A stretch of DNA of 64,000 nucleotides from NCBI GenBank assembly GCA_903834925.1, contig CAILLA010000144.1:1-64000 (forward strand). Reading direction: 5' to 3'. Shown in pieces: positions 4,755-36,783 of the stretch. The stretch comes from an uncultured Schlesneria sp. Lineage in GTDB: Bacteria > Planctomycetota > Planctomycetia > Planctomycetales > Planctomycetaceae. A program made the position numbers and the translations under genes. The notes beneath the pieces were generated by a model, which ran no database searches, had not been told where the DNA came from, and saw nothing but the letters and a program-made list of their open reading frames with translations. Numbering within the stretch: the first letter of the stretch is position 1; every line of letters starts with the position of its first letter.

Positions 4755-5203
4755 CAAGGCACCTCTTTCGTCGAATGTACCCAGGCAGACAAGCGAAGCG
4801 GGCTTACCAGTTCACCGGCACGGTTTTGCCAGCGAATCGAAGCGATGATCTGTCGCGTTTCGATTTCGCTCGTTAGTTGTTTGACGACCAATGACTGCTG
4901 CAGACCGGGCAAGACAGCCTTGAGATCCTGATCAGGATCTGGAACGCTCAGTTCCCCTGGCTCAAGATCGGTCCAATTTCGCTTTGTTGCCCCCTCGAGC
5001 AAATTGGCTGCCTGCTGCAAGGCAAACTGCCGTTGTTCGGCTGAGCGTCGTTCCCGAGCGACCAGCAATATCATCGGAATCGTCATCGAAAACAGAATTC
5101 CCAACAACAGGCAAGTCCCAATCATTTCGATAATTGTGAAACCGCCACGTTGCAAATTTGACTGACATCTCATGATCTCTTTATGTACTTTCCTGATGTT
5201 CAT
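4754..5203 (-). CDS. Pseudopilin, GspI/PilV-like
   Basis: A 149-residue protein with the prepilin motif GGFTIIEMIGTCLLLGILFSM near residues 20-40 and the Glu5 after the cleavage site. The post-helix region (ARERRSAEQRQFALQQAANLLEGA) matches GspI/PilV-type minor pseudopilins, in which a helix with QQAANL or similar follows the membrane anchor. A second in-frame ATG at 5173 would give a shorter leader; neither start has a strong ribosome-binding site (GGGCGGG before the first, GAG before the second). It overlaps the downstream pseudopilin by one base of TGATG. It probably co-assembles with its two neighbours at the fibre tip. Confidence 0.78.
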   Translation of the reverse strand: MNIRKVHKEIMRCQSNLQRGGFTIIEMIGTCLLLGILFSMTIPMILLVARERRSAEQRQFALQQAANLLEGATKRNWTDLEPGELSVPDPDQDLKAVLPGLQQSLVVKQLTSEIETRQIIASIRWQNRAGELVSPLRLSAWVHSTKEVP

Positions 5204-25543: not shown

Positions 25544-26599
25544 ATGTCATCCGTAGCCAAGGAACTTCCTTATTTGACGTCCGAACTGCCAGGAATTGGC
25601 GGGCTGCTCAAATGCGAGCCGGAAGATTTTATTGTTGAAGAAATTCCCGCTTATGAACCGTCGGGCGAGGGGCAGCATCTTTTCCTTTGGATTGAAAAAC
25701 GGGATTTGCCTCATGATCAAATGCTGCGACGGTTATCAAAAATTCTGGAAATCTCACAAGACGATGTGGGAACTGCCGGGATTAAAGATCGTCGGGCGGT
25801 GACAAGGCAGTATGTTTCGGTGCCGAATACCTGCGTAACTCGAGTGGAACAGCTTGAGTCAGATCAGTTGCATGTGCTTCGATCGAGTCTGCATGGGAAC
25901 AAGCTGCGAACGGGCCATTTGCGAGGAAATCGATTTACTGTGGTTGTTCGAGGGGTCTGTGATGACGCCAGCAATCGTACATCAGAAATTAACAAGGTGT
26001 TGCTTCAATCTGGCTTTCCAAATTACTACGGCGAGCAGCGGTTCGGACATGATGGAGAAACGCTGTCACTCGGACTGGATTTGCTCGCGGGAAATAAACG
26101 TCCCCAGGACATCCCTTATCAGAAGCGAAAATTTTTGCTGAGGCTGGCTGTTTCGTCTGTGCAATCGGATTTGTTCAACCAGGCACTCGCTCGCCGCCTT
26201 CAAGATGGTTTACTTCACACCGTCTTAGACGGCGATGTTATGGAGGTGATCGAATCAGGCGGGAAATTTGTTGTTGACGACATCATTCGCGATCAAGCTC
26301 GACAGGTTCAGGGAGAATTATCGGTTACCGGACCGATGTTCGGCGTGAAGATGCTCAGCCCCCGAGGTGTCCCTGCTGAACGAGAGGGTCGAATTCTTGA
26401 AGAAGCGGGTTTGAGCCTGGACGCGTTTCAGAAATTTGCCCAACTGATGTCGGGTGCCCGACGAGCTTTCGTTGTCCGCCCGGCAGAACTGAACTGCGTG
26501 CCAGTCGATACAGGAATCAAGTTCGAGTTCTCGCTTCCGAGCGGTGTCTACGCCACGATGCTATTGCGGGAGTTTCTGAAGACAGAGTTGAGCGAGTAA
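25544..26599 (+). CDS. truD: tRNA pseudouridine synthase TruD
   Basis: A 351-residue TruD-family enzyme, which in the E. coli protein turns U13 of tRNA-Glu into pseudouridine. Diagnostic stretches: an N-terminal EDFIVEEIPAYEPSGEGQHLFLWIEKRDLPHDQML (residues 28-62), then GTAGIKDRRAVTRQYVSV (about 76-93) with the catalytic Asp in KDRRA, and GNRFTVVVRG (about 130) followed by the FPNYYGEQRFGHDGE motif (about 159-173). The last part (KFEFSLPSGVYATMLLREFLK) is the usual TruD C-terminus. The start lies 2 bp after the stop of the 48-codon stub, suggesting coupling. It is cytosolic. The length is normal for the family. Confidence 0.95.
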   Translation: MSSVAKELPYLTSELPGIGGLLKCEPEDFIVEEIPAYEPSGEGQHLFLWIEKRDLPHDQMLRRLSKILEISQDDVGTAGIKDRRAVTRQYVSVPNTCVTRVEQLESDQLHVLRSSLHGNKLRTGHLRGNRFTVVVRGVCDDASNRTSEINKVLLQSGFPNYYGEQRFGHDGETLSLGLDLLAGNKRPQDIPYQKRKFLLRLAVSSVQSDLFNQALARRLQDGLLHTVLDGDVMEVIESGGKFVVDDIIRDQARQVQGELSVTGPMFGVKMLSPRGVPAEREGRILEEAGLSLDAFQKFAQLMSGARRAFVVRPAELNCVPVDTGIKFEFSLPSGVYATMLLREFLKTELSE

Positions 26600-26703
26600 T
26601 AAGCCCGGAAAACCAAGAATGCGAGACTGGCCGGATGAAATGGCTAAACAGGATTTAGTTAATTCAGCTGCTTCTTTTGAGCAGAATAACGGTCGAAACT
26701 TTT

Positions 26704-27048
26704 GGTACCACGGTTTTGGAGTCTTCGAGTTTGAAACTGGATTCATTGAGTCAAGTTCCAGGAATTCTTCCAAAGTAGCCATCATCGCTCCGCGTGATGA
26801 GCATGCGTCGGAAACGATTCCAACGTTGCCGACGCATCGGGACAGATATTCCGGCTGGATTTCTGATTTGAGAACATGCGGATTGGAATTTGGTAGGTTC
26901 TCGAACAATGCTCATCACGCGGAGCGATGATGGCTACTTTGGTCTGAGGCAAAGCCTCATTGGAGTCTTCGACAATGCCGCGTCTTCATAGTTCGACATC
27001 GTTTTCGAAGAACACGGCTTAACCGAAGACGGTAAAACTGCAGCACCC
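26704..27048 (+). repeat. Repeat family A copy, interrupted by element B
   Basis: Family A copy that reads continuously once the B element (26729-26959) and one copy of the 13-bp repeat are removed. The left piece, 26704-26728, is CCACGGTTTTGGAGTCTTCGA. The right piece, from 26973, runs CAATGCCGCGTCTTCATAG and on to GAAGACGGTAAAACTGCAGC. This matches the intact copy at 36547-36648 along its whole length. The right end reads CAGCACCC where the 36.6-kb copy has GTGGCACCC, so it has drifted. Confidence 0.85.
26729..26959 (+). mobile_element. Element B, copy 1 (non-autonomous, hairpin-ended)
   Basis: A 231-bp insertion flanked by the perfect 13-bp direct repeat TTGGAGTCTTCGA (26716-26728 and 26960-26972). 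One end has a stem of the form GAAACT.GA.TC-ATT-GAGTCAAGTT; the other end is the hairpin GAGGC-AAA-GCCTC (26947-26959). Inside, a perfect 33-bp inverted repeat (26772-26804 and 26908-26940) begins AAAGTAGCC and contains CATCATCGCTCCGCGTGATG. The centre has another palindrome, TGCGTCGG...CCGACGCA. There is no reading frame for a transposase, so any movement must be driven in trans. Confidence 0.75.
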
Positions 27049-27321
27049 ATTTCTCAGACTTCTGCTCCAGAAGCACTTCGTCCCCAACAACGCAAACATC
27101 GTCAGGTCGATTCATTACACCAGTCATCCACCGTGGATTCAGGTCGAGTCTCAGCGAATTCTTAAGAATTCACCGCGTATTTCCCCTGGAAACTCGAAGA
27201 AATTGGATTTCGGTCGTATGATGCGACGTTCACTGCGCCGAAATTCGCTGGCCGAACTCGTTTTGTCACGTTGAATTTGTCCTAAGTCGTTAATAAACCT
27301 GCTCTTATCGAGGTTAATCCC

Positions 27322-29046
27322 GTGTTGGCTGGTCCTTTGTTTTCGCGTGAAGCTCTGACAGTTCCTCGGCAGTTCATGCACTTTTTGATTCGTTCCGGTT
27401 ACGTTGGGGCATTCTTCGTCTTGATGTATACGGCCGCGCAAACGACGTTTGGCTGGCAGCAAGTGCGAAACCTGGGCGACATTGCTCGCTTCGGTCAGTT
27501 GGTGTTTCAGGTTTTTGCCGTCGTCCAACTGGCGATGATGGTTTTCTTTGCCTCGCTTTTTGCAGCAGGGAACGTTGCACAGGAAAAGGATCGGCGGACG
27601 ATGCTGCTTCTGCTGATGACCGACCTCAGCGACAGTGAATTGGTACTTGGAAAGCTTTGCTCAAGCCTGCTTCTGCCATGCGTACTGTTGGTCGCTTCGA
27701 TCCCAGTCTTTGCCTTTGTTCAGATGATGGGTGGCGTTTCCTCTAATCAAATTGCCTGTGCGATTGCGATCTCGGCGGCGACTGGACTGGCGGCTGGAAG
27801 CTGGGGTTCATTAGTTGCGTTCTGGCGAGAAAAGACGTTTCAGACTCTTGCGATCAGCCTGATTGGTATCGTCCTGTTCCTGGGGATTATCGAAGGTGTC
27901 GTTGCGGTTACAGGCGCACTTTCCAGCGTGGGAATTGTTGTCGGTGCGATGAATCCCTTCCGCGCAATGCTGCGTGTCCTCGATCCATTAAATACTTCAG
28001 GCGGAATCACGTATGTCTCTGTCGCCATGATTTCCGCCGGTTTGCTGGCCACTTTGGCACTGACGATTGTCGTGTTAACCATCATGCGAGTCCGCATTTG
28101 GAACCCGTCGCGGACTCTCGGAGACATGGCCACGATGGATGAAAAGGATCGTGGCGTCTCGCGACCCCCACGGCCGGTTTGGAATAGTCCCGTGATCTGG
28201 CGCGAGATGATGACGAAGGCTTATGGCCGTAAAGTCATTGTCATCAAACTGGCGTACATGGTGATCGCCGCTGCCGCTTTCTACTCGGTTTTGTCGACCC
28301 CATCGAATTCGGCTTTGGTCCTCGGCATGGTTTCCCCCATCGGGGCGGCGTTTATCGCACTGAGCCTGCTTTCGATGATGTTGATCAATGCACAAGGGGT
28401 GACAGCATTGACCAGCGAACGTGACGCAGGAACGTTGGAATTATTGCTCGTTACGGACATCACCGCCAAAGAGTTTATTGTTGGGAAGCTGGGCGGCATC
28501 CTCTACAACAGCAAAGAATTGATTCTCATTCCACTCTTTTTCATGGTCTGGTATCTCTGGCAAGGAGTTCTGACCTTCGAGAATTTCAGCTACATCACCC
28601 TCGGCTTTCTGTCGCTGGTTGTGTTCGCGGCCATGCTGGGGCTGCATTCGGGGTTAAGCTATACAATTTCTAGGACAGCCATCGCCAACAGTCTGGGAAC
28701 GATGTTCTTCCTTTTTATTGGGATCTTCATTTGCATGATTCTGATTTTGCAGGCACGGGCATCATTCGGGCTGCAGCTTCCGAGTTTCCTGGTCTTTATT
28801 TTGGGCGGAAGTCTCGGGCTATGGGCCTCGCTCACGCATCGTAATCCGTCCCCTGCTTTGACACTTGCTGCAGGGATTTTGCCGTTCTGTACGTTCTATG
28901 CCATCACAAGCTTTCTGCTGGGCCATACACTTGGCGTTTGCCTGTTCGTTGTGGCGGCTTATGGTTTTACGACCACGGCTATGTTGATTCCGGCGGTTAG
29001 CGAATATGATTCGGCTCTCGGTCGAACCGAGATGCCGAAGGGGTAG
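27322..29046 (+). CDS. ABC-2 type transporter permease
   Basis: A 574-residue polytopic membrane protein. It has two halves, each resembling the ABC-2 permease fold with about six helices; the motif LTSERDAGTLELLLVTDITAKEFIVGKL (about residues 363-390) is the classic coupling segment of the ABC-2 family, and the first half has the parallel AQEKDRRTMLLLLMTDLSDSELVLGKL (about 89-115). So one polypeptide holds a duplicated permease. Translation begins with GTG at 27322, with GAGG nine bases upstream. No ATP-binding protein gene lies beside it, so the partner ATPase must be elsewhere. The 66-bp gap to the downstream cytochrome gene suggests a shared transcript, though no functional link is clear. 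Confidence 0.85.
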   Translation: MLAGPLFSREALTVPRQFMHFLIRSGYVGAFFVLMYTAAQTTFGWQQVRNLGDIARFGQLVFQVFAVVQLAMMVFFASLFAAGNVAQEKDRRTMLLLLMTDLSDSELVLGKLCSSLLLPCVLLVASIPVFAFVQMMGGVSSNQIACAIAISAATGLAAGSWGSLVAFWREKTFQTLAISLIGIVLFLGIIEGVVAVTGALSSVGIVVGAMNPFRAMLRVLDPLNTSGGITYVSVAMISAGLLATLALTIVVLTIMRVRIWNPSRTLGDMATMDEKDRGVSRPPRPVWNSPVIWREMMTKAYGRKVIVIKLAYMVIAAAAFYSVLSTPSNSALVLGMVSPIGAAFIALSLLSMMLINAQGVTALTSERDAGTLELLLVTDITAKEFIVGKLGGILYNSKELILIPLFFMVWYLWQGVLTFENFSYITLGFLSLVVFAAMLGLHSGLSYTISRTAIANSLGTMFFLFIGIFICMILILQARASFGLQLPSFLVFILGGSLGLWASLTHRNPSPALTLAAGILPFCTFYAITSFLLGHTLGVCLFVVAAYGFTTTAMLIPAVSEYDSALGRTEMPKG

Positions 29047-36252: not shown

Positions 36253-36783
36253 CGAAGGATTATCCTGAATAAGATCTATAGAGAGTCCACTGCACGAGTC
36301 AAAATAACCTCGGACGCAAGAACTCAACTCAAGTTCGCCACGACGCGATGAAATCGACCCTGACACTCAGGACGATTGTTTGTGATGCAGTGATATTCTA
36401 CGGCGCGATTGACCACTGGTCGAGCGACCGTGCCAAACTCACAGGCGACGTGTCGATATTTTCCCCGCTGCCTGGTCAGATGAAACGGCCAAACGGGCGT
36501 ATGAAAAACTGTTGTGGGTGATGTGCGAAATAGTGATCGAAACCCGGGGTGGCACGGTTTTGGAGTCTTCGACAAGGCCGTGTCTTCATGGTTCGACAAC
36601 GTGTCCGAAGAGCACGGCCTTACCGAAGACGGTAAAACCGTGGCACCCTTTTCACGGATTTCTGTTCCAAAAGCATTGTGTTCCCATCAACGCAAAGATC
36701 CCAACTTCAGGTCGCTTCATCAGGCCTCGCGCACCACGTCGTTGATTTTGCCGTCAAGAAGCGCAATTTCGACTCAATCGACA
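36253..36783. other. Gene-free region with family A repeat
   Basis: A 531-bp gap between floA and the FAD oxidoreductase, both on the minus strand. The intact family A repeat is at 36547-36648. The remainder has no convincing gene. The promoter of floA should be near 36253-36400. Confidence 0.5.
36547..36648 (+). repeat. Repeat family A copy (intact reference)
   Basis: The most complete copy. Ends are GGGTGGCAC and GTGGCACCC. Stem 1 is CACGGTTTTG / CAAGGCCGTG, ten pairs including two G.T, with loop GAGTCTTCGA. TGTCTTC follows. Stem 2 is CACGGCCTTA / TAAAACCGTG around CCGAAGACGG; it pairs best on the opposite strand. Used as the reference for the broken copies at 26.7 and 45.3 kb. Confidence 0.88.

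Follow-up and report, generated by a model that had tools for sequence, protein, structure and literature searches.

The 345-bp block at positions 26704-27048 of the window (the whole stretch of 64,000 nucleotides analysed here) is, with a probability that we put at about 0.8, a REPIN nested in another REPIN. Family A repeats flank the gene of one REP-associated tyrosine transposase (RAYT) and the core of the inserted element B flanks a second, RAYT-like gene; the block is therefore read as a REPIN inside the REPIN loop of another RAYT. The host is family A, an inverted pair of hairpins that goes with one RAYT, and the insert is B, whose core, a GTAG-tagged REPIN accompanying the second RAYT-like gene, is enclosed by a left end (LE) and a right end (RE). 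According to the proposed mechanism, B would enter as single-stranded DNA beside (T/C)GGA at the tip of an A hairpin, leaving no long target duplication, and the A+B composite would also spread as a unit. From the sequences we infer that RAYTs would catalyse the insertion, on a single-stranded substrate and at the cut points suggested below. An earlier, sequence-only reading of this block was confirmed in its observation and partly in its interpretation.

Anatomy of the 345-bp block

The window belongs to contig 144 of its own genome (G000; 9.02 Mb, 307 contigs), where the block has a truD gene and an ABC-2 transporter gene as neighbours. The sequence TTGGAGTCTTCGA occurs exactly at 26716-26728 and 26960-26972, identity stopping beyond 13 bp, and encloses 231 bp, just where the sequence-only reading had placed an insert in family A between exact 13-bp repeats. 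No other exact 13-mer pair has a spacing of 244 among the 63740 window positions scanned; four exact 13-mer pairs 100-500 bp apart were found within the window. On the plus strand, the left part of the host (26704-26728), a REPIN of the A1 subtype by comparison with the A1 consensus, ends in the loop GGAGTCTTCGA, which is also how the left 13-bp copy reads here, and the right part (26960-27048) starts with the right 13-bp copy. These parts are identical to the uninterrupted A1 REPIN at 36547-36648 (plus strand), with which the earlier reading had matched them, at 23/25 and 77/89 positions, which makes the host a family A copy that has diverged.

The insert contains no gene, as had been claimed, and consists of three parts on the plus strand: the LE (26729-26771), whose consensus arms GAAACTTGACTCATTGAGTCAAGTTTC pair and are followed by AGGATTTCTTCC, the 169-bp core (26772-26940), and the RE (26941-26959) with the hairpin TGAGGCAAAGCCTCA. 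The core is a GTAG-tagged REPIN of two inverted REPs. In the left REP (26775-26803, plus strand), GTAG is followed by a bulged hairpin with a loop of 3 nt, and the right REP (26909-26937, minus strand) is its inverted copy. The 33-bp internal inverted repeat noticed before is indeed perfect; it forms the ends of the core and lies within a 46-nt pair at 89%. Folding of the left REP region (26770-26808) gave -6.8 kcal/mol, with a z-score of -2.13 against shuffled sequences. Hairpins had been proposed at both ends of the insert: that of the RE holds, whereas the LE of the window copy (26729-26765) folded no better than shuffles, although its arms pair in the family consensus. The ends of B, GTTTGAAACT.. 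and ..AAAGCCTCA, are not complementary by eye, which leaves the element without terminal inverted repeats. A structured RNA gene was considered and rejected, as the sole Rfam match at E<=1 in 26500-27400 was GlsR6, with 17.5 bits against a gathering threshold of 75, and was taken as a chance match.

The A core was also seen within at least three outer palindromic shells (L031-L060, L101-L140) with the arms GGAGGGCGAGGCTGG, CTAGTGCGTTGTCAA and GGCAACGCCGTGAAGGATTTT, so that the nesting may extend outwards too.

Repeat families A, B and C and their transposase genes

Family A consists of two inverted hairpins whose foot is GTGCCAC or GTGGCAC; the GTAG tag is absent, and the family is classed as RAYT-associated but not GTAG-tagged. 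In G013, a RAYT gene stands between inverted A1 hairpins at distances of 16 and 13 bp, and its protein scored 97.7 bits against the NCBIfam model NF047646 (REP-associated tyrosine transposase; cut-off 80). The homologue in the window's own genome (L401, G000:C171:4219-4734) scored 90.1 bits, also above the cut-off, and has A2 elements on both sides, as has L399 in G001. We examined 13 A-clade loci out of 14 matches (E<=5e-23), all except the one on G012:C39. GTGCCAC-type REPs were present on both sides of the gene in 7/13, on one side in 3/13 (L400, L402 and L417) and on neither side in 3/13 (L403, L415 and L427). Family A is thus itself the REPIN of one RAYT, a point at which the sequence-only reading was incomplete. 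The A-clade RAYT genes of two relatives, L403 and L415, are flanked by a different repeat, GGTGGCTGGGGTCGACCAACGGGAGCCCCCAG. A further Y1-transposase gene (L391, G005:C19) lies between GTAGGGTGGGTCGAGTCTTCGAGGCCCACC repeats, whose loop GAGTCTTCGA is that of the A1 hairpin. An initial search of the own genome gave ten Y1-transposase matches; none has a clear B repeat beside it, and family A gave one doubtful case, at a contig end beside L143. The association was seen in congeners and in homologues detected afterwards.

The B core carries GTAG directly 5' of a hairpin, is built of two inverted REPs and occurs in high copy number. A second core with another stem, B2, was found in the same LE/RE setting (L122, L005, L006, L112 and L214); among B1, B2 and the REP of G008, the stem letters differ and the pairing is kept. 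Genes stand between full-length B1 cores in G001 (L430; 80-81% identity) and G002 (L429; 82-87%, with an extra degenerate copy beside the gene); the genes L436 (G001), L431 (own genome), L432 (G003) and L428 (G008) have B2-like or related REPINs on either side. The REPs that flank the own-genome member are of the B2 type, not B1. Among the 12 B-clade loci examined, of 21 matches, GTAGCC-class REPINs were present on both sides in 6/12, and the remaining 6/12 had none of these. Against the same RAYT model, L430, L431 and L436 scored 43.3, 58.3 and 52.5, and a protein fragment from G008 scored 55.5 bits; since these matches are significant but below the cut-off of 80, we name the proteins RAYT-like. 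The 169-bp B core is the GTAG-tagged REPIN of this second RAYT-like gene. A REP-associated tyrosine transposase, which the sequence-only reading had suggested, therefore fits, with RAYT or RAYT-like genes lying between A hairpins and between B cores.

The L436 locus has the order REPIN-gene-REPIN with LE-like and RE-like ends and continues into family A at its right; family A is likewise found at the right of L430 and at the left of L429. By their arrangement, these three units resemble autonomous counterparts of B that share its host. The L430 protein (G001:C27) reads HVQ where its G002 counterpart and the others shown read HVH, a change through which its metal-binding motif may have been lost.

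Searched with up to three mismatches, the B arm pattern gave 92+90 matches in the 9.02-Mb genome (0 for the reversed-pattern control), and the family A right-end pattern, with up to two mismatches, gave 196+230 (control 1); these counts are minimum values, as a number of contigs break off in or beside a copy. The B REP is present as an exact 28-mer in MAGs of uncultured Schlesneria sp. The same 28-mer was also seen in Verrucomicrobiaceae and Phragmitibacter MAGs (L261, L277, L278, L289, L304 and L318), for which a shared REP, transfer and contamination are alternative explanations.

A third level of nesting is formed by element C, which has inverted 18-bp terminal repeats, AGGTTGTCAGTTTTTGTA, and a GTAG REPIN of its own inside. 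It lies in the loop of the right REP of B, as CGCGGAG-C-CGGAGCG, in L010, L020, L057, L067, L069, L082 and L093, and outside B, in L012, between CGGAG and CGGAA. The B-hosted copies may be one amplified event. A C-like REP was also observed 29 bp upstream of an IS200/IS605-type transposase gene (L378, G005:C81).

Host sites, empty sites and flanks of element B

To describe where B resides, we used a sample of 70 B copies from the fetched loci of four genomes (56, 10, 3 and 1), of which 69 were scored and one, at a contig edge, was left out. The orientation of L065_762, L068, L074 and L083 is uncertain, the fixed offset misplaces scored copies that lack a standard LE, and a few from different genomes may be orthologues. 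Family A was found on both sides of B in 36/69 copies (18 A1 and 18 A2), against 21 positives of the same two-sided test at 5000 random window positions. A half match was obtained in 18/69; these were not counted as family A, because 874 of the 5000 random positions yield one. The preference for one site proposed earlier is therefore real as an enrichment but not exclusive, since 15/69 copies have no family A at all.

We looked for six B loci in three relatives, and for five in a second round, one of them with a damaged query. B-free sites, which the sequence-only reading had led one to expect in related genomes, were found. At L006, where there is no family A, the insert of ~242 bp is absent from G001 with a clean junction. 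G005 also lacks B there and has 37 bp of diverged sequence instead, so that it does not offer a clean empty site; in G002 the site is filled, with the left flank TGGACTTCTTCGG, and the B-free sites read TGGAAGCAC and TGGAAGGTC. The palindrome at L023, of a third kind, carries no B in G002 (CCCTAG TGTCTC) and has one in the own genome (CCCTAG ACTTCTTCGAG..). The L018 intergenic region contains uninterrupted family A in G002 and A with B in the own genome, with 75% identity up to the start of B, which makes it likely, not certain, that the A insertion is the same; both repeats are absent there from G001 and G005. Of the other loci, L078 lacks B in G005 but has another repeat there, and in G001 it has a degenerate element; L083 is filled in G001 and G002, and G005 keeps most of B; L025 corresponds to another repeat in G001. 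Paired flanks of L024 and L065 were not found in the three relatives, and the flanks of L002 are repetitive.

At some loci it is the whole composite that is missing. At L004, ~416 bp of A+B are lacking in G001, G002 and G005. The window locus lacks the composite in G005 and G003, where the intergenic sequence differs and there is consequently no clean empty site; G005 has 155 bp of intergenic sequence at the syntenic place, to which positions 26591-27153 of the window, including the palindromic outer arms of the A1 shell, cannot be aligned. In G002 the two sides of this locus are on separate contigs, and in G001 one side was found. These absences agree with a history in which B entered A once or a few times and mainly the composite spreads, moved by the family A RAYT. 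A tree of 51 B copies, from which the 18 half matches were left out, points the same way: host type changes 18 times against 24.5 in shuffles, so that it is clustered, not confined to a few changes, and the well-supported branches alone (6/48) force 1-2 changes per host type. Nevertheless, we regard this as doubtful for the main course of events, since two A subtypes carry B at one and the same point of the loop, B also resides at non-A sites, and the uninterrupted A at L018 in G002, together with the empty non-A sites, speaks for B moving alone. Composite spread and independent movement probably both occur, and we read the history of B as repeated insertion combined with composite spread.

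The flanks bear on the claim that the 13-bp repeat is a target-site duplication. Across the sample, the repeat is perfect in the window copy (1/69) and in none of the 68 others, contrary to the expectation that other B copies share it; four further copies reach 10-12 of 13 positions (L084, 12/13; L004, L014 and L018, 10/13). Among the 36 copies hosted by family A, 29 have a left flank of the GGACTTC type and 5, including the window copy, have GGAGTC there; on the right, GGAGTC is present in 26/36. The usual left flank, GGACTTCTTCG, persists at sites that lack it when seen empty in related Schlesneria genomes: as ACTTCTTCG, it is present at L023 and in the L006 copy of G002 and absent from the empty sites, and thus belongs to the element. 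Agreement between left and right flanks per copy was 5.43/13, close to the 5.14 of shuffled pairs (P 0.06; A1 hosts P 0.04, A2 hosts P 0.10, non-A hosts P 0.50). The slight excess counts to a small degree against an element-borne flank, and so do the five GGAGTC left flanks, which are such as a short duplication would give and are scattered on the B tree. Taken together, B and its target have at most a few bases in common (GGA or AG), and the scar-like 13-bp repeat is largely a chance product of ends that resemble each other. The junctions often show GGA, L023 being an exception with TAG; the left end of B starts with CT following GGA.

That B is a MITE of a cut-and-paste (DDE) transposase, making 9-13-bp target duplications with a preference for the A loop, is accordingly very improbable. 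The 13/13 repeat of the window copy and the 10-12/13 of the four others would fit it, but the single perfect pair among 69 copies, the predominance of GGACTTC on the left and GGAGTC on the right, the identical left flank at two non-A sites whose empty forms lack it, and ends that are not inverted repeats of each other all argue against it; in the form with a 13-bp duplication, we rejected it on the flanks of the 69 copies and the empty sites. Least credible of all is an origin of the nested hairpins by replication template switching or gene conversion among palindromes instead of transposition, for the recurrent palindromes, and the scattered GGAGTC left flanks that resemble conversion towards the host loop, stand against gains of ~242-246 bp with the same ends at unrelated sites and the same repeats on either side of transposase genes.

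Returning to the nested REPINs, we tentatively propose, as one possibility, that RAYTs land by preference in the exposed, harmless loops of REP hairpins that belong to other RAYTs, so that REPIN populations would stack (A, B, C), the signal being the shared loop motif (T/C)GGA(G).

Comparison with known systems

GTAG REPs and REPINs, as described in two papers (PMC3733652, PMC8266576), have GTAG before a short hairpin, occur as inverted pairs in high copy number and include a REP-flanked transposase gene. The B core is like them in its tag, inverted pair, copy number and flanked gene (PMC3733652, PMC8266576). Unlike them, the B REPIN has an additional LE and RE and sits in the REPIN of a second RAYT, and family A is without GTAG. 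The second of these papers describes a guide model for IS200/IS605 with pairing of guide and cleavage site, and TnpA-REP proteins that cut single-stranded REP DNA at CT, GTAG helping the choice (PMC8266576). The CT that follows GGA at the left end of B would fit such cutting.

IS200/IS605 elements and their non-autonomous derivatives have hairpins at their ends, a short junction motif and no long target duplication. B resembles them in its end hairpins and the missing long duplication, and perhaps in a short junction motif, but its core matches RAYT-associated REPs. The insertion sequence ISPpu9 reportedly targets REPs, and IS1397 and IS621 are insertion sequences found in REP sequences. These elements, like B, are mobile DNA in REPs, but they carry a transposase gene and B has none.

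Knowledge of how REPINs move and land comes mostly from in vitro cutting by RAYTs and from population patterns. Here, sites of one REPIN-bearing element are seen both occupied and empty in related genomes, the dominant target being the loop of another REP family, and the genes that go with both repeat types were found in one genus, whereby the target choice of RAYTs becomes directly testable. REPIN families may provide habitats for one another, as this arrangement suggests. Among the matches listed in a literature search, mostly outside the subscription journals, there was no title on REPINs nested in REPINs and none on such repeats in Schlesneria.

REP dimers are regularly found inside other palindromes, as with GTAG-15 of A. 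variabilis, GTAG-23 of T. roseum and CGTC-1 of H. neapolitanus (PMC3733652). Where that paper treats these cases, the host palindrome is not called a RAYT repeat, and for two of them, A. variabilis and H. neapolitanus, it states that the palindrome was not found without the REP (PMC3733652). In the present case, by contrast, empty sites exist, and the host belongs to a REPIN family that has its own RAYT and many uninterrupted members. REP dimers in palindromes are thus known; a case in which the surrounding palindrome is a RAYT REPIN too, and in which empty sites and both transposases were found, looks like a new version of them.
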